This document shows, piece after piece, positions 6,933 through 60,966 of a stretch of DNA of 64,000 nucleotides. The translations under genes and the position numbers were made by a program. The notes under the pieces were generated by a model. It did no database searches, was not told where the DNA came from, and saw only the letters and a list, made by a program, of their open reading frames with translations. The DNA is taken from positions 1-64,000 of IMG/VR virus record IMGVR_UViG_3300034175_000060. One strand, written 5' to 3'. This DNA is from a virus. Position 1 is the stretch's first letter. Each line of letters opens with the position of its first letter.

Positions 6933-7789
6933 GTAATCAAGACTGGCAAGTTGCAGCAGTTCGTTTAGCAGAAACAGAAGTGATGTCTTGGCGTGACATT
7001 GCCATCCAGCTTGAGGTGGCAAAGTCCACAGTGAGTGACTATCTGCGCAGTTATTTCAAATTCAAAGATGAGGCACGTGTGGAAGAAATGTACGAAGAAC
7101 CTGCACCTAAACAGAGCCATGACAATTCTCGTATATTGTTCATCTCTGACATGCACATTCCATATCACCATCCGAACACTATTCCGTTCTTGAAGATGTT
7201 GAAGGAACGTTATAATCCTACGCGAGTGATTTGTTTGGGAGATGAGCTTGACAAGCACGCGCTGAGCTTTCATGATAGCGACCCGGACTTGATGAGTGCT
7301 GGCGATGAGCTTCGTGCTTCTCTGCCGGTTATCAAGCAAGTAGAAGAATTGTTCCCTGTTATGGACATCATTGACAGTAATCATGGTAGTATGGTGTTCC
7401 GCAAATCTAAGGCTCACGGCATTCCACGTCACTATCTGAAAAGCTACAATGAAGTGTTGCAAGTTGGCGATGGTTGGAAGTGGCATCATGACATGACTAT
7501 CGAACTTCCTGACGGCCAGAAGGTTTATATCCATCACGGTAAGAGCGCTGAAGCGATTAAAACCAGTCAAGCAATGAGCATGAGTCATGTGTGTGGTCAC
7601 TTCCACGAGAGCTTTGGTGTGAAGTATTGGGCCAATCCTAACGGTTTGTTCTTTGCAATGAATAGTGGGTGCTTGATTGCAGACGATAGTTACGCATTCG
7701 CTTATAACAACACCAATTTGAAACGTCCTATTATTGGGACTAGTTTGATTATTGATGGTGTACCTATTCTAGAAGCCATGCCACTATGA
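6929..7789 (+). CDS. Calcineurin-like metallophosphoesterase with N-terminal HTH
   Basis: A 286-aa protein. Residues 1-45 form a helix-turn-helix (MSWRDIAIQLEVAKSTVSDY). Residues 68-250 carry the metallophosphoesterase signature: FISDMHIPYHH (D-x-H), CLGDELDKH (GD), DSNHGSMVF (NH), IHHGK and VCGHFHE (GHxH). The fold cleaves phosphoester bonds with two metal ions; phage members include DNA repair nucleases and nucleotide phosphatases. The HTH suggests DNA binding and hence a nuclease. An HNH gene follows in an ATGA overlap. Confidence 0.75.
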   Translation: MSNQDWQVAAVRLAETEVMSWRDIAIQLEVAKSTVSDYLRSYFKFKDEARVEEMYEEPAPKQSHDNSRILFISDMHIPYHHPNTIPFLKMLKERYNPTRVICLGDELDKHALSFHDSDPDLMSAGDELRASLPVIKQVEELFPVMDIIDSNHGSMVFRKSKAHGIPRHYLKSYNEVLQVGDGWKWHHDMTIELPDGQKVYIHHGKSAEAIKTSQAMSMSHVCGHFHESFGVKYWANPNGLFFAMNSGCLIADDSYAFAYNNTNLKRPIIGTSLIIDGVPILEAMPL

Positions 7790-8442
7790 TTGGCGAAAGA
7801 TTCAACAGATGGTTGGTTGTTGTACGCGGTGAGGACTATATCTACCCAAGTACCGGCAAGAGTGCTATAAGATATATTTGTTCTTGTGATTGTGGAGAGA
7901 CTAAGTTGGTGCACAAGAGTCATCTCAAGAACGGTTCTAGTCAGTCTTGTGGTTGTCTAAATCGTGAGATTTCTTCTACTGCTGGTGGCTTGTCTCAGAC
8001 TCGTGCTTACAGGTCTTGGTCAGGGATGATTGGCAGAACGGACCCTAACAACACTCAAGCATCCAATCAATCTTACAGAGACAAAGGAATTACTTGTAGC
8101 GAAGATTGGAAATCCTTTGAAAACTTCTACAGAGACATGGGAGATTGTCCAGAGGGTTATGAGCTAGAACGGGAAGATGTTATGGGAAACTACTGTAAAG
8201 AGAATTGCACATGGTCAGACGAAGTTACCCAAGCAACTAACCGCACAAAGTTCAGTAACAACACTTCTGGTTATACTGGCGTAAGTTGGAGCGAACAACA
8301 TAACAAGTGGCGAGTTGGTCTTTACGTAAACAAGATACGTTATGAAGGCGGGTTATTTGAGAAGGATGATTTTGCCTCTGCTGTAAAGGCCAGAAAAGCA
8401 CTTGAATTAAAGCATCTTGGTTACATAAAGGATCACATGTGA
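7786..8442 (+). CDS. HNH homing endonuclease with CxC ribbon and AP2 domain
   Basis: A 218-aa protein in three parts. First, a zinc-ribbon-like start with YICSCDCGETKLV and SQSCGCLNREI (residues 30-66). Second, a degenerate HNH region (YRSWSGMIGRT, CPEGYELEREDVMGNYCKENC, TWSDEVTQATNRTK). Third, a C-terminal AP2 module (SGYTGVSWSEQHNKWRVGLY). The same architecture occurs at 39992. It overlaps both neighbours by 4 and 1 bp. Confidence 0.82.
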   Translation: MIGERFNRWLVVVRGEDYIYPSTGKSAIRYICSCDCGETKLVHKSHLKNGSSQSCGCLNREISSTAGGLSQTRAYRSWSGMIGRTDPNNTQASNQSYRDKGITCSEDWKSFENFYRDMGDCPEGYELEREDVMGNYCKENCTWSDEVTQATNRTKFSNNTSGYTGVSWSEQHNKWRVGLYVNKIRYEGGLFEKDDFASAVKARKALELKHLGYIKDHM

Positions 8443-24924: not shown

Positions 24925-25857
24925 TTAAGCTCTGTATTCAGAGTCTAGTTTTGAAATTAGTTTAATAAAGTCTTCTTGTGTTACATCCACGAAGCATTCT
25001 GTATATCCGTCGAATTTGTAGTCAGGTGATTTAAAATTCATCCTTAAATTCGATAATTGTTTCTGTTCTATATCTCTTGCGCGATTACCGTCGTCAAACT
25101 CATAAATAGCAACTTTTTCGAAAGGTATTCCTGATGACATTCTTATTTCTCGCAGGCGGCTTTCAGGGCGTTTATTAGTGATCCCTATCTTGATAGTTTC
25201 ATTAGATTTCAACACATAGAGAGATGCAGGCTTACCTTGACTAAACCCAGATTTGTTACATCTGGTGCAACCACAACCTCGTAAATGTGTACAAGGAGTC
25301 TGACTGAAGGTATAATCACAACGATTACATTTTATCTTTCCAGCGTCTTTAGCAGAGATATACTCAAATTCTGAATAATCATAAGTACCAATACCGTGTT
25401 CTTCCTCAGCCTCTTCTACAAATTTTTCTTTAGTTTTTGCTTGAGTAGGGCCAATGCGCTCCAAACCACACTTAGGACAACCATTACCTTCACAGAGATT
25501 CTGTGCTGTCGTTTCCACAATACCGTGTTTTAAGCAAACGAAACTGATCTTATTCTTACCTTTGGTGTAAATTGAATTAGAGAAATCATACAAATCTGAG
25601 TAATGGTTTATCATCTCAACCAAGAACTGTTCTTGTGTTTTGGTCTGAGATTTGCCACACTGAATGTCTCCACAGACAGGGCAACCATAACCTTGTTGCA
25701 GACTGTTAGGCCGGGTTTCAAAATCACCGTGCTCATAACAACCCACTGTAACTTTTATGTGAGCATATTCATAAACTACTCTGGAGAGGTCATACCTGTC
25801 TCCATGAATCTTTATAATATTCTCTTTAAACTTTTCTGTTGTAAGTCTAGGTGGCAT
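24925..25857 (-). CDS. Putative homing endonuclease: zinc-knuckle repeats plus T5orf172 (GIY-YIG-like) domain
   Basis: A 310-aa protein. Three treble-clef-like repeats (about 1-65, 70-135, 140-200) have the pattern VGCYEHGDFETRP...GYGCPVCGD, FVCLKHGIVE...GNGCPKCGL and IKCNRCDYTF...GCGCTRCNK, like DUF723. Residues 208-275 (PASLYVLKSNETIKIGITNK) match the T5orf172/Mug113 branch of the GIY-YIG fold. A paralogue lies at 26455. It sits between the major tail and chaperone genes and is preceded by hairpins, one holding its ribosome site. Confidence 0.75.
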   Translation of the reverse strand: MPPRLTTEKFKENIIKIHGDRYDLSRVVYEYAHIKVTVGCYEHGDFETRPNSLQQGYGCPVCGDIQCGKSQTKTQEQFLVEMINHYSDLYDFSNSIYTKGKNKISFVCLKHGIVETTAQNLCEGNGCPKCGLERIGPTQAKTKEKFVEEAEEEHGIGTYDYSEFEYISAKDAGKIKCNRCDYTFSQTPCTHLRGCGCTRCNKSGFSQGKPASLYVLKSNETIKIGITNKRPESRLREIRMSSGIPFEKVAIYEFDDGNRARDIEQKQLSNLRMNFKSPDYKFDGYTECFVDVTQEDFIKLISKLDSEYRA

Positions 25858-26454: not shown

Positions 26455-27177
26455 TTAAGTTTTATTTGCGGAGATTATCTCTCCAAATGTCTCTGTAATT
26501 TTTAGGTACAGATCGGAGCGGTCAACATCCACAAATGTTTCTGTGTAACCGTCAAAAGTTTTATTGATATTCTTATAGGTTTTCCTGAGATAACGCAGAA
26601 CTATTGTCTCTATATCTAAGGCCGTTTTGCCTTCAAAGAACTTAAGCTCTAATAGAACATCAAAATTTAGTCCGGAGTCTCTTGAGACTAGACCACACCT
26701 TTTCTTAACAGTGCGGTTAGTTATTCCGAGTTTGGTGTAATCATCACCGCAACCAAGTACATACAACGATCCGGGCCGCCCACTTTTGAAACCTGATTTA
26801 GCGCAATCAGGACAATTCTGCCCTTGTCGATGGTTGTCAGGTGTCTGATGGAAAATGCCGTGTAATGGGCAAATGATCTTGATTTTCGTAATCTTGTCTA
26901 AGTAGTCAACCAAAGAATAGTCATAAAAGTCTCCCCGAATCTCTCGGGTTTTCTCAACCCATTCCTCTGTAGTTGGACTGTAAGTAGGACTACATTTATC
27001 ACAACCTCTCCCCATCATATGAGAATCAGCATTTTGTTCAAAGTCACCATGCACAGGACAAGTAATAGTAACCAAGCTCCTACGGTTCTTATAAACTGTC
27101 CTATCATATGAAAACTTAGCACCATTTATTACTTTACTTCTTCGAATAAATTCCTCTGTGGTAAGCTTTCGACCCAT
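26455..27177 (-). CDS. Putative homing endonuclease: zinc-knuckle repeats plus T5orf172 domain
   Basis: A 240-aa paralogue of the 24925 protein with two Cys/His repeats (ITCPVHGDFEQNADS...GCDKCSP and IICPLHGIFHQTPDN...NCPDCAK), then SLYVLGCGDDYTKLGITN of the GIY-YIG-like domain. It ends DGYTETFVDVDRSD like its paralogue (DGYTECFVDVTQED). ATG 27177 follows AAAGG. It appears to use the ribosome site and start codon that would be expected to serve the major tail gene. Confidence 0.75.
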   Translation of the reverse strand: MGRKLTTEEFIRRSKVINGAKFSYDRTVYKNRRSLVTITCPVHGDFEQNADSHMMGRGCDKCSPTYSPTTEEWVEKTREIRGDFYDYSLVDYLDKITKIKIICPLHGIFHQTPDNHRQGQNCPDCAKSGFKSGRPGSLYVLGCGDDYTKLGITNRTVKKRCGLVSRDSGLNFDVLLELKFFEGKTALDIETIVLRYLRKTYKNINKTFDGYTETFVDVDRSDLYLKITETFGEIISANKT

Positions 27178-27186
27178 TTGCAACCT

Positions 27187-32369: not shown

Positions 32370-32898
32370 CTGCACTCTTGTATTGAGCAGCAAATTTTGC
32401 TGCGAGGCGGGTTGCAGTATCGGCTTCGTCTACAGGTGTTTCCACCGTCGCAGCTACGCCTTTTTCTTGGAACATTTCTGATTTACTTTCAGCTTCACGG
32501 TTGACAGCAAATGCACTCAACACAGTATTGAAAGTGGTGTCATCGGCACCTTCCAGCGATGCCAGAACAGGAGCAGCGCCAATAGTACCCAGCACAGCTT
32601 CCAGTTTTTCTTTACGAGCAGCAATCACAACAGCTTTAGCTTGTGCAGCGAATTCAGCTTGAGCCGTTTCCGATGCAGCCAGTGCGGCGGACATTTTCTC
32701 AACTTGTGCAGCCATAGCTACAAAAGCGTCTTCTTTGGTTGCCAGAGCGGCTGTAGCCTGTTCGAGACTAGCAGTAAGCTCTGCAATAGTTGCGGCAGTT
32801 GCTAGTGCAGTCGCCTCAGTGGTTTCAGTCATTTCGACTTCCTCTTGAATAGCAGCTTGCACTGCTGGTTTAAAATACTTCTGAAGATGTTTAAGCAT
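32359..32898 (-). CDS. Capsid scaffold-like protein
   Basis: A 179-aa protein. Ala/Glu/Thr-rich helical middle (ATIAELTASLEQATAALATK to AALAASETAQAEFAAQAKAV) predicted as coiled coil, between the S49 protease and decoration genes, as for lambda Nu3. ATG 32898 overlaps the protease stop by 8 bp and follows AAAGGA. A scaffold would be cleaved by the adjacent protease after prohead assembly. This is inferred from composition and order. Confidence 0.7.
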   Translation of the reverse strand: MLKHLQKYFKPAVQAAIQEEVEMTETTEATALATAATIAELTASLEQATAALATKEDAFVAMAAQVEKMSAALAASETAQAEFAAQAKAVVIAARKEKLEAVLGTIGAAPVLASLEGADDTTFNTVLSAFAVNREAESKSEMFQEKGVAATVETPVDEADTATRLAAKFAAQYKSADAK

Positions 32899-33736
32899 TC
32901 TTCTGTCCTTTTTGTTGTGCCAGATAAGCAGCAAATTGTTTATGATCCATTACACCATTAGCCAGCCCAACTTCTACAGCTTTCGTGGCACTAAACATCT
33001 TCGCATCCATTGCTAAAATAGTCTCTTTAGGGATGCCTGTGAATTTAGTTACATGCTCTGCAAATTGATCGCCGAGGTTGGTGACTTCTTCTTGCAGAGT
33101 TTTAAGGAAGTTTTCAGAGAAACTTCCGTCTGGATTGAAAGCAGTTTTGCCGGGTGTGCTGCTGATATAGATTGGCTTGATACCTGCATCTGCCAGAGCT
33201 TTACTTTGATCTACGACACAACAGACACAACCTACAGAACCCGTTGTAGCGGATGGGTGGATGTAAACTTCATCAGCAATAACACTCAGCGCCAGAGCAG
33301 CGCTTGCGGCCATCTCATCTATATAGCTAATCAGTTTTACGTTGTTGTCATCTGCTATATCGCGCAGTTCTTGGCAAGTAGTGAAGCAATGAGCGGCAGC
33401 GCCGCCCGGTGAGCTAAACGTCATGAGGATAGTGTCTACGCCCTCATCAATAAGCTCTTGTGCTTGCTCTAGGATACCTGTGTAGGAAGTTCCTGACGGA
33501 CCGCACAAACCCTCAACAGGTTTGTATGAGATTGCACCATCAATACAGATTTCACCAATACCACCAACTTGTTCTAGCTTCTTCTTTGTGTCTGCTGATT
33601 TGGTATCAGGGACAAAAGAAAAGCTTGCAGAGTTCCGTTCTTTCAGGTATTCTACGATTGGCTTAAGTGCAGTAGCTGTGATAAGCTGAGGGGAGTTGTA
33701 TATCGAATCAAGGAGACGATGGAGTTTGTGTGACAA
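32891..33736 (-). CDS. Prohead protease, S49 (SppA / lambda gpC) family
   Basis: A 281-aa protein. DTILMTFSSPGGAAAHCFTT and YIDEMAASAALALSVIADEV place the nucleophile Ser near residue 145. IHPSATTGSVGCV is the conserved following segment. S49 phage enzymes process scaffold and portal during prohead maturation. The start is TTG 33736, 6 nt after AAGGAG; no other suitable start is near. The downstream scaffold gene overlaps. Confidence 0.82.
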   Translation of the reverse strand: MSHKLHRLLDSIYNSPQLITATALKPIVEYLKERNSASFSFVPDTKSADTKKKLEQVGGIGEICIDGAISYKPVEGLCGPSGTSYTGILEQAQELIDEGVDTILMTFSSPGGAAAHCFTTCQELRDIADDNNVKLISYIDEMAASAALALSVIADEVYIHPSATTGSVGCVCCVVDQSKALADAGIKPIYISSTPGKTAFNPDGSFSENFLKTLQEEVTNLGDQFAEHVTKFTGIPKETILAMDAKMFSATKAVEVGLANGVMDHKQFAAYLAQQKGQKNA

Positions 33737-39076: not shown

Positions 39077-39219
39077 TGACCGTTATGGAATGGACAGTTG
39101 AACAGATTTTGCAGGATTCCGAGTGTTGTGGTAATCCTTTGCGTTGTCATAGTGAAGCTTTGAGTGAGAGGAATGTGTTTCGTAGTTGTGTTGGTGTTGT
39201 AGAGGAAGAAGTTCTTTGA
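39076..39219 (+). CDS. Small Cys-containing protein (47 aa)
   Basis: Starts in a TAATG overlap. Contains WTVEQILQDSECCGNPLRCH with a CC-x5-C-H cluster that could bind metal, and a later Cys. The function is unknown. Confidence 0.5.
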   Translation: MTVMEWTVEQILQDSECCGNPLRCHSEALSERNVFRSCVGVVEEEVL

Positions 39220-39242
39220 AAAATAAGTCTAAAGGAAATAAC

Positions 39243-39992
39243 GTGAGCCGTAATGCTAATCGTTTTGCAAAGAAACAGGTGACTGGGTCTGATGAGGATC
39301 GAGTTGTAAAAGCGAAGTTCCTTGCAGTGTCACGAGAAGAAGTAAAGTTGAAGGCAATTACGCCCCTCAACGAACGACAAGAAGAATATTTTGAAGCTTT
39401 GCGTACTAAGGATTTGGTTGTAGCCAGCGGCATGGCCGGAACCTCAAAAACCTTTGTAGCATGTTGCTTTGCCGCTGATGCCTACCGTGCAGGAGATATC
39501 AATAAGATTGTTCTGGCTCGTCCCGCTGAGAGTTCTTCCAAATCTCTGGGTTTCGCTAAGGGCGACCAGACAATGAAGATGATGCAATGGGTTATGCCTA
39601 TGATTTCTGTGCTGTACACGCGCATGGGCAAGGCTGTAGTTGATCTTGCAATCCTTGAAGGTAATATCATTTTGCAACCTTTGGAGTCTATCAAGGGTAT
39701 GAGCTTTGGTAAATACACTTGGGTTATTGCTGACGAAGTGGAGGATTGCACAATTGAAGAAATCAAATCTATTGTTACTCGCAGTGGTGGATGCCGGATG
39801 ACATTATGCGGTGACGTCTCCCAAAGCTGCCTGAAAGAGACAAGCGGGTTATTGGCCTTGATGAAGATTATTGAAGGTTCTCCTCGGTTGCAAGAAAGTG
39901 CAGCTTTAATTGACTTTGACTCGTATGACCACATTGTACGTAGTAAGTTGTGCAAAGACTTCATTATTGCCTATGACAAAGCGGGATATTGA
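39243..39992 (+). CDS. phoH: PhoH-like ATPase
   Basis: A 249-aa protein. Walker A is VVASGMAGTSKTFVACCF; the usual GTGKT is GTSKT. Walker B is WVIADEVEDCT. LARPAESSSKSLGFAKGD, INKIVLARPAE and MTLCGDVSQS follow PhoH family order. PhoH proteins are helicase-like ATPases common in phages, with incompletely known roles in RNA or phosphate metabolism. GTG 39243 is chosen because AAAGGA lies 6 nt upstream; TTG 39216 is an alternative. Confidence 0.82.
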   Translation: MSRNANRFAKKQVTGSDEDRVVKAKFLAVSREEVKLKAITPLNERQEEYFEALRTKDLVVASGMAGTSKTFVACCFAADAYRAGDINKIVLARPAESSSKSLGFAKGDQTMKMMQWVMPMISVLYTRMGKAVVDLAILEGNIILQPLESIKGMSFGKYTWVIADEVEDCTIEEIKSIVTRSGGCRMTLCGDVSQSCLKETSGLLALMKIIEGSPRLQESAALIDFDSYDHIVRSKLCKDFIIAYDKAGY

Positions 39993-40714
39993 TGGATGAA
40001 AATATAGGTAAAGTGTTTGGTAGACTTACTGTCTTGGAGAAAACAGCCATTAAATCTAAGTACCATTACTCTTGCCAATGCTCTTGTGGCAACGTAAAAG
40101 AAATCTCCTTTGGGAATTTAGTAAAGAAGAACTCTCCAACATTGTCTTGCGGTTGCCTTAGAAATGAAAACATCACTAAAATTTGTGGTAAACATCTCAT
40201 GGCAAAAAGTAAGGAGTATAAATCTTGGTCTAAAGTAAAAGAGCGTACAGGAAATCCTAAGACTCATAACTATTGTGATTATGGCGATAAAGGTTTTCTT
40301 TTGCAAGATTCTTGGCATAGCTTTCAAGCATTCATAGATTATATGGGGTTGATGCCAAAAGACGGTAAGAGGTACACAATTGACAGGATTCAAAATCATC
40401 TAGGTTATATAGAAGGTAATGTGCGATGGGCTACCAACCACGAGCAAGCTCGAAATAAAACAAAGCCGAAGAATAACTCGTCAGGATTCGTGGGTGTTGC
40501 TTGGCATGATAAACCCAGCCGTGATAAAACATCTTCACTACTTTACGCAACAGCTATTTGGTATGCTCTGGAGGGTAAAAAGAAGTCAAAGTGCTTTTCG
40601 GTAAAAACTTACGGGCTACTCCCAGCCTTCAAACTTGCTGTAGAATATCGTAACAAAATGATTGCAGAGCTAAACTCCCAAGGTGCTGGCTACACTGAAC
40701 TTCACGGTAAATAA
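39992..40714 (+). CDS. HNH homing endonuclease with CxC ribbon and AP2 domain
   Basis: A 240-aa protein built like the 7786 protein: ribbon YSCQCSCGNVKEI and LSCGCLRNENI; HNH-like SWSKVKERTGNP, YTIDRIQNHLGYIEGNVRW; AP2 module SSGFVGVAWHDKPS; end TYGLLPAFKLAVEYRNKMIA and TELHGK. ATG 39992 overlaps the PhoH stop (TGATG). Confidence 0.85.
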   Translation: MDENIGKVFGRLTVLEKTAIKSKYHYSCQCSCGNVKEISFGNLVKKNSPTLSCGCLRNENITKICGKHLMAKSKEYKSWSKVKERTGNPKTHNYCDYGDKGFLLQDSWHSFQAFIDYMGLMPKDGKRYTIDRIQNHLGYIEGNVRWATNHEQARNKTKPKNNSSGFVGVAWHDKPSRDKTSSLLYATAIWYALEGKKKSKCFSVKTYGLLPAFKLAVEYRNKMIAELNSQGAGYTELHGK

Positions 40715-42370: not shown

Positions 42371-42589
42371 ATGGCAAAAGTAAAATTCAGTAAAGACGTG
42401 GCACTATCTTATCGTGAGCAAGGAATGTCTCACCAAGAAATATCTGAAATTATGGGTTGTTCGCTGAAGTGGGTAAACAGTGCCTTGGTGGGAGTACCTA
42501 AAGGCAACATGCGTGTCCCTGTTGACGATACGAAGATTCAAGTCATGAATCTAGTTAGAGAACTGCTAGTGAAACTGGAGGCATTGTAA
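42371..42589 (+). CDS. Small HTH protein
   Basis: A 72-aa protein. DVALSYREQGMSHQEISEIM followed by GCSLKWVNSALVG is a helix-turn-helix of the resolvase/Trp-repressor type. ATG 42371 follows AAAGGAA. It could be a regulator, or supply DNA recognition for its neighbours. It overlaps the next gene by 1 bp. Confidence 0.6.
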   Translation: MAKVKFSKDVALSYREQGMSHQEISEIMGCSLKWVNSALVGVPKGNMRVPVDDTKIQVMNLVRELLVKLEAL

Positions 42590-43785
42590 TGTTGGGTACG
42601 CGAATTAAAACTATCAACTTCGGCTGGTGTGAAGCTATCTCTGACATGTATGTAATTGAAGGTAAGAAATCTCGTGGTGGTTGGGTTGATGTCAAGTTTG
42701 ACAACACCGGTTATGTGAAGAGAAATGTCATAGTTGATTTCTTCAATCAAGGTTGCGTGCGCGACTCCAGCATACCTATTGTAATCGAGATTGGTCAGAT
42801 ATACCACACAAATCTTTCTGGTGATGTGAAGATTATTGGAGGGGATAGAAATCTAAATATCCAGATTGAGTTTCTGGAGAGCGGCAATACTTACAAAGCG
42901 CAGAAAGACGCACTTCTCACAGGATTTGTTAAGGACAAACCATCTGTTGACAAAAGGCTGGTTAAGGAAGAGGAAGAAAAGCAACACAGGAAGTATGTTG
43001 CAGAATGTGAAGCTTCTGTGAGAAAGAACGCAGAAGAACATGCTAAACGCATCAAACAGGCTAAGAAGGATGAACGTGCGAAGTTAATCAAAGAACACAA
43101 AGAATTTGTTGAAGCTTCTAAGCAGGAACGAAAACATAAGAACGAATCGTTGCTTCAGAAAGCGTTAGATTTCTCTTATGTGCAAATCGACCAAACTACT
43201 TACAGTGCAGGGCTTCTTAACGTTGATTTCAAAGATATAGAGGGTAAGTGGGTGTTGCGATACAGAAATCCTAAGACCAAAGATTTCGTTCAAACTCGCT
43301 TAGGTAAACTCCATAACAACATGACCCAACGAGGAAAGAAAGATTCTGCACTGCAAGACGTACATAACAAATCCTACAACGGTGTCTCCGTAAGCGAAGA
43401 GTTCAAGAATGCACAAACATTCTGTGACTGGGCGGTACAGCAACCCGGATGGGGCTTAGGTTATGATCTTGAGAAAGATTTATTGGTAGACGGCAACCGA
43501 GAGTACTCTTCTGAAGCTTGCTGCTTCCTGCCTGCGGACTTGAACATGGTTATTGCTTTCAAAGGTAAAGTTGATTGTATTAAGAGCGGAGAGTGTTATA
43601 CAGCACGAGCTTCGGCAAGAGGTGAGAGTTTTGTCCTCGGTAGATTTGAGACTGAGGAAGAGGCAACTTCGGCTTGTCTTGAATACAAACACGAGAGGGC
43701 CATGAAACTACTTGAGATATTCAAGCCGTACATTTCTCCCAAAGCTGTAGATAAGTTAATTGAGCTATTTGGAAAATCTCATTGA
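42589..43785 (+). CDS. Large AP2/HNH-degenerate protein, putative homing-type factor
   Basis: A 398-aa protein. N-terminal region with beta elements (about 1-110), a long Lys/Glu coiled coil (about 115-195), then a region where KSYNGVSVSEEFKNAQTFCD, GYDLEKDLLVDGNREYSSEA and CCFLPADLNMV match the degenerate HNH segment of phage endonucleases. The end, TARASARGESFVLGRFETEE, then EATSACLEYKHERAMKLLEI, matches an AP2 module. The HNH His residues are not clear, so it may bind DNA without cutting. Confidence 0.6.
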   Translation: MLGTRIKTINFGWCEAISDMYVIEGKKSRGGWVDVKFDNTGYVKRNVIVDFFNQGCVRDSSIPIVIEIGQIYHTNLSGDVKIIGGDRNLNIQIEFLESGNTYKAQKDALLTGFVKDKPSVDKRLVKEEEEKQHRKYVAECEASVRKNAEEHAKRIKQAKKDERAKLIKEHKEFVEASKQERKHKNESLLQKALDFSYVQIDQTTYSAGLLNVDFKDIEGKWVLRYRNPKTKDFVQTRLGKLHNNMTQRGKKDSALQDVHNKSYNGVSVSEEFKNAQTFCDWAVQQPGWGLGYDLEKDLLVDGNREYSSEACCFLPADLNMVIAFKGKVDCIKSGECYTARASARGESFVLGRFETEEEATSACLEYKHERAMKLLEIFKPYISPKAVDKLIELFGKSH

Positions 43786-43837: not shown

Positions 43838-44503
43838 ATGAAACGTTTTGCTTATCTTCGTTGCAGTAGTGACGTACAAAGTACGGATCACCAAAAGAAT
43901 ACTATCATTCAGAGTGGGTATGTTCCAGATGTTTGGTATTCAGAAGACGGTGTATCTGGTACTACGTCTGCTAGTAAACGCCCAGAGTTTCAGAAGATGA
44001 TGCTAGAGGCAGTGGAAGGAGACGAAGTTTTGGTATTTGCTGTAGATCGCCTTGGTAGGAGGGCTGCTGACATCCTTCAAACGGTAGAATTATTCATCGA
44101 AAAGAAGATCAAACTACGTATCCATGCTTTCGACAATCTAGACATCACAAGTATGTATGGCAAAGTTTTGGTGCAGTTCTTGGCTGTGTTCGCGGAACTG
44201 GATCGTGCTCAGATCATTGCACGCTGTGTCAGCGGAAATCAAAAGAAGAAAGATGCTGGTGTTATCCTTGGCAGAGGCTTCACTATTCCGCCTGAAATTT
44301 TGGAAAATTTAAAAATCGATCAAGATTCTGGTATGACTCTAAATGAACTGGCGGGGAAATATGACATCAATCGAGCCACAATCAGTCGGAATCTTATTGA
44401 ATGGGGAAGCAATCTCAGTGAGTACGAAACCCGCTGGAATACATTCCAACAGCAGAAAGAAGATCGTCGTTTGAGTAAGATTGCCAAGCTTCAAAACACG
44501 TAA
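43838..44503 (+). CDS. Serine recombinase (resolvase/invertase family)
   Basis: A 221-aa protein. KRFAYLRCSSDVQSTDHQKN holds the nucleophile Ser. VFAVDRLGRRAADIL and LVQFLAVFAELDRAQIIAR carry the conserved Arg and E-helix motifs. The C-terminal HTH (MTLNELAGKYDINRATISRN) binds DNA. Small resolvases separate multimers or invert segments. Lying next to the origin-like region, it may resolve genome multimers. ATG 43838 follows AAGGAG. Confidence 0.85.
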   Translation: MKRFAYLRCSSDVQSTDHQKNTIIQSGYVPDVWYSEDGVSGTTSASKRPEFQKMMLEAVEGDEVLVFAVDRLGRRAADILQTVELFIEKKIKLRIHAFDNLDITSMYGKVLVQFLAVFAELDRAQIIARCVSGNQKKKDAGVILGRGFTIPPEILENLKIDQDSGMTLNELAGKYDINRATISRNLIEWGSNLSEYETRWNTFQQQKEDRRLSKIAKLQNT

Positions 44504-48680: not shown

Positions 48681-48850
48681 AATTCCACCACATAGCCAAC
48701 TTCAATTAATCGATTATCCACAGGATGCTGAATATACACATTAGCATCACACGGCTTACCATCTCGCAGACAACGAGTTTTCACCATATCGCGACCTAGG
48801 TCGTCTAGTTCGGCGGGGTCTTGCAATAGCTCTATAACTTCGTATTTCAT
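48677..48850 (-). CDS. Hypothetical protein (57 aa)
   Basis: ATG 48850 follows AAGGA. KYEVIELLQDPAELDDLGRD, TRCLRDGKPCDANVYIQHPV. Lies directly after the polymerase-like gene and is probably co-transcribed with it. The function is unknown. Confidence 0.55.
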   Translation of the reverse strand: MKYEVIELLQDPAELDDLGRDMVKTRCLRDGKPCDANVYIQHPVDNRLIEVGYVVEL

Positions 48851-48858
48851 ATCAATCC

Positions 48859-50148
48859 TTATTTAGAACAATCTTCAACTTGCAGAATACCATCTTCTAA
48901 CCAATTCATTTTCATACTCACAACTCTGTCAACCTCGACAACTCGTTTATACGCATAGCTCATAGCGTCCACAAGCTTATCGGCATTCTTACGTTGTACT
49001 ATAAATGAATCGTGCACAACTAAAACAGGCTGTTGAATCTTTACAAACTCATCTAGTACGTAATGAGCAATCCAGCTATCTTTATTCTGTAGCACCAATC
49101 CTGTGCACTCTTTGTTGCAGAACTTGCTTTTGAATTCCGGCAGCTTCTTATAGACTTCCTTTACAACCTCATCACCGGAGCTATAACAGAATGTTCCTTT
49201 CGGTTCCTCCGCAATTAGATCGTCAATAGCATTCTTTGCTTTGTACTCAGACGTAGCATTGAGCATAATGTTTATGCCAAGCTTTACAAGCCGTCTATTG
49301 TCTGTGCTATAATTTTGCTTGTCTAGCACATGGTAGTAGATATCCATACCTCTATACTTACTAACACACATTATATCAGAAAGCATGTTAATGTGCAAGC
49401 AATCGAAGTCAATCTCAACAATAGATTCACCGTCAATTGTTGTTCTCAGTCGATCTTTAGTTTTCTTGTTCTTGATCTTGAGAATAGCAGCTTTGAACCA
49501 CCGACCGCCAAAGAAGAAAGATTCATTGTTGAATATCCTACCATACATGTTCACCATGAAGCTACCGGCATAGTCTAGGAATATGTGATTAGAATTCAAT
49601 TGATTGACGGCAAATACAACACGCTCGGCCTCTACTAGTTCCTCTGTGAACTCATAAGCTATAGGATTCTTATTCTTGTCTCTTAGTTCGATACTTACAT
49701 TGGCAAGAATATGGTTATCCTCGGCTGTTGTCACTAACTCAGGCTTAGCACAGAACTTATCAATAAAGCTATCGGAGGGAACAACATACGATGACTGCTT
49801 ATCTCCAATGTCACCATATTGCCTAGGAGCAAGGTAATTGAACAGATAGCCTAGCTGTTGTAGTTCAGCCACAGCATTGTATATGTTATAATTAGATAGC
49901 TTACGTACATTGTAGATAGAAGGCAAGATACCTGTCTTACCTCTGAGATAGTATAGTCTCTGTCTACGCTTGACACAAGCAATCATATTCATGATGACAA
50001 CATGTAAAGCTGATCTATTCTTAGTCTTCCATCGTTCAGTGATCTTCCTCACTCTCTTGTCTATCTCTATGTTTAGCATCATCACCTTACTGTTACTAGT
50101 GTATGATTGTGTGCTTAGTGTTATCCCTTCTTCTGTTACTGTAATCAT
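48859..50148 (-). CDS. Small family A / T7-RNAP-like polymerase-fold protein with N-terminal winged helix
   Basis: A 429-aa protein. Residues about 74-105 (ILPSIYNVRKLSNYNIYNAV, AELQQLGYL) look like a winged HTH. The C-terminal 230 residues carry an ordered set of polymerase motifs: A, VEIDFDCLHINMLSDIM (Asp247) with MDIYYHVLD; B, DNRRLVKLGINIMLNA (Arg285, Arg286, Lys289); C, PVLVVHDSFIVQ (His379, Asp380). A FFFGGRWFKA segment at 211-220 also occurs in uncharacterised proteins of this type that I recall from genomic islands. There is no exonuclease domain and it is half the size of PolA or T7 RNAP. DNA or RNA synthesis cannot be told apart. It has a promoter with a 170-nt structured leader and lies 3.6 kb from the DnaA-box cluster. 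Confidence 0.6.
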   Translation of the reverse strand: MITVTEEGITLSTQSYTSNSKVMMLNIEIDKRVRKITERWKTKNRSALHVVIMNMIACVKRRQRLYYLRGKTGILPSIYNVRKLSNYNIYNAVAELQQLGYLFNYLAPRQYGDIGDKQSSYVVPSDSFIDKFCAKPELVTTAEDNHILANVSIELRDKNKNPIAYEFTEELVEAERVVFAVNQLNSNHIFLDYAGSFMVNMYGRIFNNESFFFGGRWFKAAILKIKNKKTKDRLRTTIDGESIVEIDFDCLHINMLSDIMCVSKYRGMDIYYHVLDKQNYSTDNRRLVKLGINIMLNATSEYKAKNAIDDLIAEEPKGTFCYSSGDEVVKEVYKKLPEFKSKFCNKECTGLVLQNKDSWIAHYVLDEFVKIQQPVLVVHDSFIVQRKNADKLVDAMSYAYKRVVEVDRVVSMKMNWLEDGILQVEDCSK

Positions 50149-50319
50149 CTATTCCTCTTGTAGTCTCTTCAGCTAGGCTAGTAGTCCTCCGCAGGTCAGG
50201 CGGGCTTACTCATTATGGCATGAAATCAACGCCTAAAAGCCCACAAAGCTAGGCTGTATGCGGGTTCTAAGGCATTTCATAGTGGGTTATTGGTGAAAAT
50301 CACCCTTCACATAACGATC
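50149..50319 (-). promoter_or_regulatory. Long structured 5' leader of the polymerase-like gene
   Basis: No gene. On the minus strand it holds GGTG-ATTTT-CACC and an AGCC...GGGCTTTT stem-loop with a short U-run. The 8-mer GCCTAGCT occurs twice (50185 and 50250 regions). GAGGAA precedes the start codon. It could act as an attenuator or translational switch. Confidence 0.45.
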
Positions 50320-50347
50320 ATTGTACAGCAAGCCTGCACACAGTCAA
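50320..50347 (-). promoter_or_regulatory. Promoter of the polymerase-like gene
   Basis: On the minus strand TTGACT (50347-50342), 16-bp spacer, TACAAT (50325-50320). Confidence 0.65.
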
Positions 50348-50383
50348 GACAATTATAACTATCACCACAATAGCAATCAACTA

Positions 50384-50896
50384 TCATACACCTACCTTAT
50401 CAGCCATCCATCGAACAACTTTCTGCACTACAGAATGTTTCACTTTAGCAACAGGTTCAAGCTTCTTAAGAGATTCACTAATCTTGTGCAACACTTGTAC
50501 AGAATCTTTCCTGAAGTCTGTTTCAAAGATTGCCTTAATATTATTAGCTGCCAAGCTTACAGAGATGGTATTTTCTACAGTGTAGCCTTTCTCACAGTCA
50601 ACACGTTCTAGTGTCAAGTCTGTGGGCCGACGTACGTTATCACTTCCTGTACGAGTAAGCTTGATGCCTGTGTATGCACAATGTTCCACTTTTAACAACT
50701 CTTCTACATCTTGACGAGTTAAAGAGAAAGCAATCTTACGCGCCCTACTGCTGTTAGCTTTGTTGCGATAGAAATTATCTATACGGTGTTCGGTCCATGG
50801 CTCGGAGTCAGCAGGAGGCAAGTTCTTTACAGTTTCTGCTTTCACTTTCTTCACAGCTTTTCTTTGCACAGCTTTAGGTATTTTAACAGTAGTCAT
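50384..50896 (-). CDS. HNH-like nuclease
   Basis: A 170-aa protein. Basic N-terminus (KAVQRKAVKKVKAETVKNL). The core EHCAYTGIKLTRTGSDNVRR, PTDLTLERVDCEKGYTVENT and ISVSLAANNIKAIF has the C-x-x-TG, Glu/Asp and Asn pattern of HNH-fold nucleases, although the usual His-His pair is not clear. ATG 50896 overlaps the upstream stop. It sits just before the polymerase-like operon. Confidence 0.6.
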   Translation of the reverse strand: MTTVKIPKAVQRKAVKKVKAETVKNLPPADSEPWTEHRIDNFYRNKANSSRARKIAFSLTRQDVEELLKVEHCAYTGIKLTRTGSDNVRRPTDLTLERVDCEKGYTVENTISVSLAANNIKAIFETDFRKDSVQVLHKISESLKKLEPVAKVKHSVVQKVVRWMADKVGV

Positions 50897-51132
50897 AATC
50901 TCACCCATGTTTGATAATCACCCTCACTATACTCCCTGCCATTCACCCTATCCCTAGCCTTCTCAATCTCTACCAGCGCCTCCCTATGCCCCTCACAAGC
51001 CCTGTTCGCTTGATCGTCGCTAAGCCTCCACAGTGCTGGCACGCGAAGCTCTCCTAGAGCCTTACAGAACGTGCAATAGGTGTTTATGTGCTTAGGAATG
51101 TGTACATCAATGCACCTCCACACTATCCACAT
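50893..51132 (-). CDS. Hypothetical protein with Cys/His motif (79 aa)
   Basis: TYCTFCKALGELRVPALWRL, SDDQANRACEGHREALVEIE: a C-x2-C and C-x2-H pair could bind zinc. ATGA overlap downstream. The function is unknown. Confidence 0.5.
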   Translation of the reverse strand: MWIVWRCIDVHIPKHINTYCTFCKALGELRVPALWRLSDDQANRACEGHREALVEIEKARDRVNGREYSEGDYQTWVRL

Positions 51133-58901: not shown

Positions 58902-59117
58902 TCAATTTTTCTCCCAAAACCAAAATTGTTCTACAAAGGATTCTACAAACTTAGCCGTAACAGGCCCGCTAGCAAGCAACTTTCCATGACCTTCAAAGCG
59001 GAGGCGCTTACCTTTGATGACAACTTGCACATACATCACTTTGTCATTGCGAGCGATAAAATTCACGTCTGTAAGAGTCGCGCCGTATTGTTGCAGAGCT
59101 TGTTTGATAAGTTCCAT
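58902..59117 (-). CDS. Hypothetical protein (71 aa)
   Basis: ATG 59117 follows GGGAAG. MELIKQALQQYGATLTDVNF, then beta strands (KVMYVQVVIKGKRLRFEGHG). The function is unknown. Confidence 0.55.
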   Translation of the reverse strand: MELIKQALQQYGATLTDVNFIARNDKVMYVQVVIKGKRLRFEGHGKLLASGPVTAKFVESFVEQFWFWEKN

Positions 59118-59151
59118 GATTTTCTTCCCTGTAGTTCGTTTCGACAGACAA

Positions 59152-59180
59152 ACTATAGCAAGCCATAATCCAACCGTCAA
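59152..59180 (-). promoter_or_regulatory. Leftward promoter
   Basis: On the minus strand TTGACG (59180-59175), 17-bp spacer, TATAGT (59157-59152), 35 bp before ATG 59117. Confidence 0.6.
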
Positions 59181-59626
59181 GAACTTTTCAGTCTAATTTC
59201 AGATTGGCTAAGAACATGTCAGATACGAGATAGCAATCGGTGCGGACACTATATAAAGTAGTTCTCAAGCCGTCATCCTCCGAGTGGCACAAGGCGAACA
59301 GCTAGCGAAAAAGGCTAGAGTTGTTGTATTTTGTAGAAAGTGCTTTACAGATTGCCGAAAGTCTGCAATAATATATTCACTTGCATCGGAGATGGTAAGC
59401 TAATCCAATCCTGCCCGAATGCTTTTTCGATGTCAAACTGACAATTGTTGTCTAGAAACTTGTATTCTGGTAACATTCTGGGTAATTCTGCATGCCCTCA
59501 AACCATAGATAATATGGTCAAAATACAAAACGACCCTCCAAGATTCGGTGAGATATAGGCAAATCGGCCAAGGCTTTTCAGTTTCGAAAAGACGTTTCAC
59601 TCTGAGACAACATTCTTCTAGATGTG
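59181..59626. other. 446-bp gap without a supported gene
   Basis: Short open frames here lack ribosome sites; the 67-codon frame at 59433-59636 starts inside the terminator below. Small stem-loops CTAGC/GCTAG (near 59300) and CAGA/TCTG (near 59350-59366) are visible. It could encode a small RNA; I see no clear one. Confidence 0.35.
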
Positions 59627-59648
59627 AAAAAGCCACCCGAAAGTGGCT
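59627..59648 (-). terminator. Intrinsic terminator
   Basis: On the minus strand AGCCAC-TTTCGG-GTGGCT (59648-59631), then TTTTC. It lies just after the 59654 gene end. Confidence 0.75.
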
Positions 59649-59653
59649 TGTTG

Positions 59654-59871
59654 TTATTCTTCATATTCAAAAAGAATATACCAATGATCCTCATCATTCC
59701 TACGACCACCTCCATACATGACATGCTTTGTTAATTCATCAATATGATAATTGTCGTTGTATTTAGACAGAGTGTTTTTGAGTTGGTACCACGTAGGCTT
59801 TTTAGCCAAGCTGCTAAAAAGTATTCACCGTATTGGTCGTATTGATTATGCTCGTCAGTTAGAATCCACAT
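59654..59871 (-). pseudogene. Frameshifted small gene (about 72 aa if repaired)
   Basis: ATG 59871 (TAATG overlap, AAGG site) opens MWILTDEHNQYDQYGEYFLA, AWLK. The continuation in the -1 frame, KPTWYQLKNTLSKYNDNYHI, then DELTKHVMYGGGRRNDEDHW and YILFEYEE, is a convincing rest of the same protein and ends at 59654 just before the terminator. The frames meet at a run of five A on the minus strand (59803-59799); six would restore one frame. The total length (218 nt) is one base short. Sequencing error, mutation or ribosomal slippage are all possible. Confidence 0.6.
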
Positions 59872-60071
59872 TATTTACCTTTCTCCGGCATTTTATCTAC
59901 AATAATCTCACAAATATCACAATAAGCACGCCCATTCTTGGCTCCATGCTTCACAATAGCGATCTTCGAAGCTTCTTGTGCAAGGTCGTACGTGGTATAT
60001 ACGCCTACAAAGTATTGACACCAATCGTCATATTCTGCACCATTACAGTACTCTACTAGGAATAGTTTCAT
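59871..60071 (-). CDS. Hypothetical protein (66 aa)
   Basis: KLFLVEYCNGAEYDDWCQYF, then a helix and RAYCDICEIIVDKMPEKGK. Strand-helix-strand unit with four Cys. Overlaps the next gene by 4 bp. The function is unknown. Confidence 0.58.
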   Translation of the reverse strand: MKLFLVEYCNGAEYDDWCQYFVGVYTTYDLAQEASKIAIVKHGAKNGRAYCDICEIIVDKMPEKGK

Positions 60072-60217
60072 GGCAATTCCTCAACAAAATTATCATACTC
60101 TGCGTACAACTTATTAATCTGTTCCTGATAGTCTTGCAATTCTTCCTCCAAGCTATCCATTTCATCAGCAATATGTTTGATTTGCTGTTGTAGTTCTTCT
60201 TTACGTGTAATATTCAT
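60068..60217 (-). CDS. Small coiled-coil protein (49 aa)
   Basis: ATG 60217 follows GGAG. RKEELQQQIKHIADEMDSLE, EELQDYQEQINKLYAEYDNF: heptad-like charged helix. Overlaps both neighbours by 3-4 bp. The function is unknown. Confidence 0.6.
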   Translation of the reverse strand: MNITRKEELQQQIKHIADEMDSLEEELQDYQEQINKLYAEYDNFVEELP

Positions 60218-60384
60218 TTCATCTCCGGTATGCAGTATTCTTCAGGATAGCACAAAAAGTGGGTAACAGCAACGTATTCATCAGGCATACTAATACTGTT
60301 TGCACCATTTGAGACAGCAATTTCCATTACTTCATGTAGAATACTACTTATTTCACACATTGGGATTGGTTTCTTGTAAGTCAT
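60214..60384 (-). CDS. Hypothetical protein (56 aa)
   Basis: MTYKKPIPMCEISSILHEVM, EIAVSNGANSISMPDEYVAV. ATGA overlap downstream; ribosome site weak. The function is unknown. Confidence 0.5.
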   Translation of the reverse strand: MTYKKPIPMCEISSILHEVMEIAVSNGANSISMPDEYVAVTHFLCYPEEYCIPEMK

Positions 60385-60429
60385 TTAAATCGGCCTATTG
60401 GGCAACAATCCATTTATGCCAGCAGAACA

Positions 60430-60966
60430 TTATGGCTTCTCCGTTGGCTGTGGTTCGGCAGAATTCGCTGCAAGAAGAAGTCGAATAGCATCCGTGGCAA
60501 GTATGTAACCTCCGTTCTCGATACCATCTCGGTAGAAGTGCGGAAGCGCATTAACTGATGCGTATATGTTATCTAGGTCAGCGTCTGACGCACAGGCGTC
60601 TTGAACCAACCTCAAGAGTTCTTTTGCATCACTGAACTCCTCTTGGAAATGGAAGAACAATGCAATCAAATCGTCCATTCCTTTTCTATCCCAGAACTCG
60701 ATGAATTCTTCAGTGGAATAACACTTCAGAGAGGTGCGCCCGCTGCCATCTGCCATAAGGATTCTTCCCGGTACGCCGGCGGCGCGCTGGGCGAGGGCGC
60801 GGGTAATTATCAGCGTCAGGTCGGACGTAGTGACCGCAAGCATTTCCTTTTCGTCAAAGTCGTCGTTATATTCCAGTTCGCAAACGTCGCGTAAGATGGT
60901 CGAAATTACCGCCCGCTCATCCTGCGGCAACTCCCCGCCCTGCTGTACTTCGGTATTGGTGGTCAT
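60430..60966 (-). CDS. Hypothetical protein (178 aa), GC-rich
   Basis: Helical and acidic (LRDVCELEYNDDFDEKEMLA, VTTSDLTLIITRALAQRAAG). Much of the coding DNA is visibly GC-richer than its neighbours. ATGA overlap with the gene upstream. It looks like a recently acquired pair; the function is unknown. Confidence 0.6.
   Translation of the reverse strand: MTTNTEVQQGGELPQDERAVISTILRDVCELEYNDDFDEKEMLAVTTSDLTLIITRALAQRAAGVPGRILMADGSGRTSLKCYSTEEFIEFWDRKGMDDLIALFFHFQEEFSDAKELLRLVQDACASDADLDNIYASVNALPHFYRDGIENGGYILATDAIRLLLAANSAEPQPTEKP

Follow-up and report, generated by a model that had tools for sequence, protein, structure and literature searches.

The window, a stretch of 64,000 nucleotides comprising positions 1 to 64,000 of IMG/VR virus record IMGVR_UViG_3300034175_000060, encodes a 429-residue member of the divPolA2 family. 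Its N-terminal domain is a predicted MarR-like winged helix, putatively DNA-binding, and is joined to palm and fingers of the PolA lineage, which on the evidence of the structural model and of motif conservation very probably have both the fold and the catalytic competence of a polymerase. Our preferred reading, to which we assign a probability of roughly 0.45, is that divPolA2 would be a short-tract polymerase tethered by its winged helix, most likely one that starts the replication of its mobile element. A sequence-only reading of the same DNA had recognised the open reading frame, leaving its strand (minus) unstated, and had proposed a half-size polymerase fold behind a winged helix. That anatomy is upheld by fold and by motif conservation, whereas the accompanying claim of novelty falls, the family having been published in 2024. 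New here are the winged-helix identity of the N-terminal domain, a lineage in bacterial islands, and the location of a family member, ICP1 ORF100, at a mapped theta origin.

Features of the divPolA2 locus in the window
Feature	Position	Strand	Remarks
divPolA2 gene	48859..50148	minus	coding 50148..48862, 429 aa; stop 48859-48861
Predicted MarR-like winged-helix domain, ~residues 45-125	49774..50016	minus	recognition helix ~86-98; AlphaFold + Foldseek
GR motif region, residues 203-233	49450..49542	minus	invariant R216 and R233; equivalent to the PolA DxxGR...LQ...R stretch
Motif A, residues 245-256, EIDFDCLHINML	49381..49416	minus	catalytic Asp247
Motif B / O helix, residues 285-297, RRLVKLGINIMLN	49258..49296	minus	Arg285, Lys289
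Motif C, residues 376-383, LVVHDSFI	49000..49023	minus	His379, catalytic Asp380
Intergenic stretch upstream of the divPolA2 gene	50149..50383	minus	contains ribosome-binding site
HNH-type endonuclease, upstream neighbour	50384..50908	minus	phrog_3118, E=7e-24
Serine recombinase	43838-44503		phrog_125 DNA invertase, E=3.5e-41

Predicted fold and active site

A model of the full protein was generated with AlphaFold from 26 sequences (mean pLDDT 85.7, pTM 0.84) and compared with the PDB using Foldseek, which returned 97 hits at E<=0.001 (best E=7e-7, probability 1.00). The best 50 of these are all family A DNA polymerases, which supports a right-hand palm. Low global TM-scores to the PDB matches (0.25-0.38) are what one would expect were only the palm and fingers common to both structures. 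The protein is half the size of PolA, comprising the N-terminal domain followed by palm and fingers; as had been proposed, it contains no exonuclease and no thumb of normal size, the latter judged from the length and order of the parts without superposition. The segment preceding the palm was confirmed as a winged helix by folding residues 22-165 alone (AlphaFold pLDDT 78.3), for which the best 50 PDB matches are almost all MarR or winged-helix proteins; the Foldseek E-values are modest (best 3.4e-3, probability 0.99) and the matched family is consistent. Pfam HTH_34 was matched in 3 of 23 homologues (best E=1.3e-4).

The polymerase motifs lie where the sequence-only reading had placed them and are conserved. 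In an alignment of 16 sequences, R216, R233, D247, Y271, R285, K289, H379, and D380 are invariant, and since the homologues are only 18-31% identical to the window protein (with a single exception at 81%) the motifs are not a product of chance. Among 76 dereplicated phage and bacterial sequences, R216, R233, Y271, K289, and D380 are present in 76/76, D247 and H379 in 75/76, and R285 in 74/76. Alignment with bacterial PolA using hhalign is colinear through the GR and LQ elements, motif A, and the RR.AK helix, and the 31 residues that separate the GR motif from motif A are a PolA-like spacing. The hhalign scores against phage and bacterial PolA are weak (probability 0.5-7.5%), so that the case for homology to PolA is made by the predicted structure and the invariant motifs rather than by sequence statistics. 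Pfam PF00476 gave no match for the window protein, for the 16 aligned sequences, or anywhere in the window record; single-sequence searches of Pfam, PADLOC, and the PDB with the window protein found no family, and the 16-sequence profile matched no PDB sequence.

Three positions set most members of the family apart from PolA. By hhalign, the steric-gate Glu of PolA is replaced by His252 (His in 58/76) and the O-helix Tyr by Asn297 (Asn in 57/76, Tyr in 3/76), while Ser381 takes the place of the Glu in the PolA HDE motif, making motif C mostly HDS among the 76 sequences. In Klenow, the steric-gate Glu and the O-helix Tyr contact one another, and simultaneous change at both positions therefore looks coordinated. 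Such an active site might belong to a minimal RNA polymerase, or to an RNA primase initiating chains with NTPs, much as T7-type RNA polymerases arose from PolA. Tyr639 of T7 RNAP, which is needed for ribose selection, corresponds to the position that is predominantly Asn here, and this argues against such an activity, as do the PolA-like spacing and the uniform identity of the best 50 PDB matches as DNA polymerases; the latter also speaks against the T7-RNAP-like identity that had been entertained beside PolA. On the other side stand the exchange of the steric-gate Glu for His, the HDS motif C shared with T7 RNAP, the few phage RNA polymerases found at E about 5e-4 in a BFVD structure search, and the presence of mitochondrial and N4 RNA polymerases among the structural neighbours of divPolA2 listed by Yutin et al. 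2024 (PMC11348598). On balance, we regard an RNA polymerase or primase as quite unlikely.

Family members in phages and bacterial islands

The sequence-only reading had presented the protein as undescribed, but it belongs to a family that Yutin et al. 2024 (Virol J 21:200, PMC11348598) named divPolA2 in a search limited to Caudoviricetes. These authors described, in barbaviruses, an intact palm without thumb or exonuclease, preceded by a globular N-terminal domain 'without detectable similarity' to known domains; the barbaviruses concerned have a regular replicative polymerase elsewhere and carry divPolA2 paralogues. The window protein matches phrog_4756 (E=1.4e-45, function unknown) and, in a BFVD structure search, Barba31A (E=2e-19). 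A second family member that aligns with it (L034) recovered 283 phage records, of which 115 are Rheinheimera barba phages (best listed E=5e-14). With the window protein itself, tblastn found 57 phage records from Vibrio, Aeromonas, Pseudoalteromonas, and Pseudaeromonas phages, including ICP1; nearly all are 110-146 kb in length, and the gene is annotated as hypothetical in every case save one unannotated record. IMG/VR yielded one relative at 81% identity and a further 25 loci by way of sub-alignments, and one Thioclava plasmid carries a homologue. Several phages and bacteria have at least two copies, with up to three paralogues per phage.

The window phage itself looks barbavirus-like. Its full record of 86,208 bases contains a terminase, a major head protein, and PhoH, together with a DnaB-like primase-helicase (81387-83033) and, beyond the window, a replicative DNA polymerase (83617-85689; phrog_1252, E=2e-173). 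PolB-like motifs can be seen by eye in the polymerase, which PF00136 does not match, so that 'PolB' is a call at the level of motifs only. Because this phage possesses its own replicative polymerase and primase-helicase, divPolA2 would be an accessory enzyme. PF00476 was matched at a different locus in all 13 named phages tested and in the syntenic relative G401, in some cases below the family cut-off. In G401, a PolA gene (32828-33640) sits between the same neighbours as the phrog_1252 polymerase of the window phage, a further case of the replicative polymerase swapping described by Yutin et al. 2024 (PMC11348598); divPolA2 is kept in both phages at 81% identity.

The ATG of the divPolA2 gene (position 50148) is preceded by a Shine-Dalgarno-like AAGAGGAAT, and the gene is surrounded by small, variable genes. 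No iteron-like repeats were found in the upstream intergenic stretch, nor any convincing iterons upstream of the gene in 12 phage regions. A replication module composed of a DnaA-box region and a serine resolvase had been suggested, but DnaA-box matches in the window occur at chance level (10 observed, 9.25 expected) and the resolvase has no match in G401, which is otherwise syntenic; a module of resolvase and polymerase was rejected on the latter ground.

Comparison of the window phage (G000) with G401 also showed that the divPolA2 region (48684-50290), with its 81% identical protein, stands out from neighbouring orthologues, most of which are 25-60% identical, the main other exception being PhoH (39186-39992, 83%). 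In the window phage each of these two genes has an HNH endonuclease for a neighbour, a possible hint of exchange driven by homing; none was seen beside the G401 orthologue of divPolA2. Six endonuclease genes, HNH-type or related, are present in the window (7786-8442, 24925-25857, 26455-27183, 39989-40714, 42589-43785, and 50384-50908).

The family is also well represented in bacteria. At E<=1e-8, members were found in 51/397 genomes from the family of Ruegeria genome G002 and in 25/399 genomes drawn from its phylum. Bacterial and phage members separate on a tree, with two label changes compared with 25.7 for shuffled labels, such that the bacterial copies form an old lineage; their origin as recent prophage remnants was rejected on the same grounds. 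A tyrosine integrase lies within about 9 kb of 14/20 bacterial loci as opposed to 0/20 control stretches taken from the genomes under study (P=1.7e-6), the 20 loci being an independent second batch that played no part in building the integrase model. The count in the first batch is partly circular, the seeds having come from those loci, and the second is the trustworthy one. The integrases examined contain Phage_integrase and DUF6538 domains, and further neighbours include Type I, Type III, and Type IIG/ISP restriction-modification genes, a serine recombinase, and a reverse transcriptase. The bacterial lineage is separate and widespread, residing in Pseudomonadota genomic islands with integrases and restriction systems, and we infer that divPolA2 is a core gene of mobile elements, both lytic phages and bacterial integrative islands.

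Company of this sort raises the idea of a conflict protein, which in bacterial defence islands would be a polymerase-type effector and in phages a counter-defence factor or a weapon against other phages. The nearby restriction-modification systems, the reverse transcriptase at one locus, and the small, variable genes around the window copy are in keeping with it. PADLOC gave no convincing match for any phage or bacterial member tested, however, and the diversity of the adjacent cargo and frequent linkage to integrases fit a core island gene better than one defence system; a role in conflict appears decidedly improbable.

Some of the island cargo is of separate interest. The reverse transcriptase gene (RVT_1; L258, 12484-13890) is ~3 kb from divPolA2 in an integrase-bearing stretch. 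Large genes with little or no known family adjoin divPolA2 at three other loci (L265, 10108-11913; L268, 6397-8286; L270, 5995-8142), encoding a DUF1963 protein, a HATPase protein, and a 715-residue orphan, and these are possible uncatalogued cargo.

Relationship to replication origins and proposed role

The strongest clue to function comes from ICP1, a well-characterised phage of the cholera bacterium. Its ORF100 is a family member located at 58,951-60,618 in ICP1_2006_E. Working with a derivative of that strain in which CRISPR-Cas is deleted, Barth et al. 2019 (PMC7145576) report that 8 min after infection sequencing reads are most abundant 'near the 60 kb position', a pattern that fits theta replication from a single origin. 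A random gene would fall within 2 kb of the 60-kb point about 3% of the time, by simple arithmetic; the coincidence comes from one phage and was noticed post hoc, and the peak coordinate is approximate. No other recognised replication protein is among the annotated ICP1 genes around 60 kb, and the PolA match of ICP1 is ~27 kb away from the divPolA2 gene (24.3 kb versus 51.2 kb in MW794178). Literature on the function of ICP1 gp100 was sought and none was found, and ICP1 is absent from the main text of Yutin et al. 2024 (PMC11348598).

Across 12 phage genomes, family members lie closer to local minima of cumulative GC skew than do random points (median 6.0 kb versus 11.3 kb, P=0.018), a weak and confounded signal that divergent transcription could also produce. 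The global minimum was rejected as an origin marker, as in ICP1 it falls at 85 kb, a long way from the gene, which has only local minima near it.

On this basis, we propose that divPolA2 is an active nucleotide polymerase which, lacking a thumb, would be of low processivity and would be held on DNA by its winged helix. Acting at or near the origin as an element-specific initiator or primer polymerase, the tethered enzyme would synthesize a short tract, either a primer or the DNA first made where the duplex is melted or nicked, which the helicase-primase and replicase of the element would then extend. Counting against a role in initiation are the single phage behind the origin coincidence, the weakness of the skew signal, and the lack of upstream iterons. 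Moreover, with up to three paralogues per phage and a window copy that is about 11 kb from the nearest skew minimum, not every copy can mark a single origin.

A rival candidate is a DNA polymerase for short-patch repair or gap filling, whose winged helix would hold duplex without sequence specificity and so replace the missing thumb. Repair or gap filling is one option put forward by Yutin et al. 2024 (PMC11348598), and the absence of an exonuclease is in line with it. Varied gene neighbourhoods and copy number would suit a non-essential repair function, and across the 76 sequences the winged helix varies as much as the linker does and exceeds the palm in this respect. Against this, the neighbourhoods examined show no association with repair genes, and the position of the ICP1 gene at the origin becomes a coincidence, leading us to consider repair rather unlikely. 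Replication initiator and short-patch polymerase had both been offered by the sequence-only reading; we retain both, with the ICP1 coincidence favouring the initiator.

The boldest form of the initiation model, which we advance tentatively and think somewhat doubtful, is that divPolA2 is a new initiator class that combines a winged-helix origin binder and a PolA-lineage primer or short-tract polymerase in one polypeptide, serving lytic phages such as ICP1 as well as bacterial islands. If this were true, divPolA2 would represent a kind of initiator in which origin binder and polymerase are one and the same, and a candidate would be named for the unknown initiator of ICP1. The winged helix, the islands, and the placement at the ICP1 origin make the function of divPolA2 testable, since ICP1 is genetically tractable and its replication profiles have been published.

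Comparison with known polymerases

With divPolA2 as published, the window protein has in common the intact palm motifs, the lack of an exonuclease and of a normal thumb, the N-terminal globular domain, and the occurrence of paralogues; to that description are added the MarR-like winged helix predicted for the N-terminal domain, the bacterial island lineage, and the ICP1 origin coincidence. DivPolA1 is likewise a divergent, accessory PolA found beside a regular phage polymerase but, unlike the window protein, it retains an exonuclease domain in inactivated form along with a truncated thumb, and is placed among replication genes (PMC11348598). T7-type RNA polymerases share the A-B-C order of the palm, the K...(+8) spacing of motif B, and an HDS motif C, and yet none is among the best 50 PDB structure matches; the window protein is half-sized by comparison, has a winged helix as its N-terminal domain, and places Asn where these enzymes have the ribose-selecting Tyr. 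Its best structural match is to the palm and fingers of family A (Klenow, Taq; PF00476), with which it shares the GR motif, the motif A Asp, the O-helix Arg and Lys, and the HD of motif C in the same order. It differs from family A in having no Pfam match, in its changes from Glu to His at the steric gate, from Tyr to Asn in the O helix, and from Glu to Ser in motif C, and in carrying a predicted winged helix in place of an exonuclease and a normal thumb.
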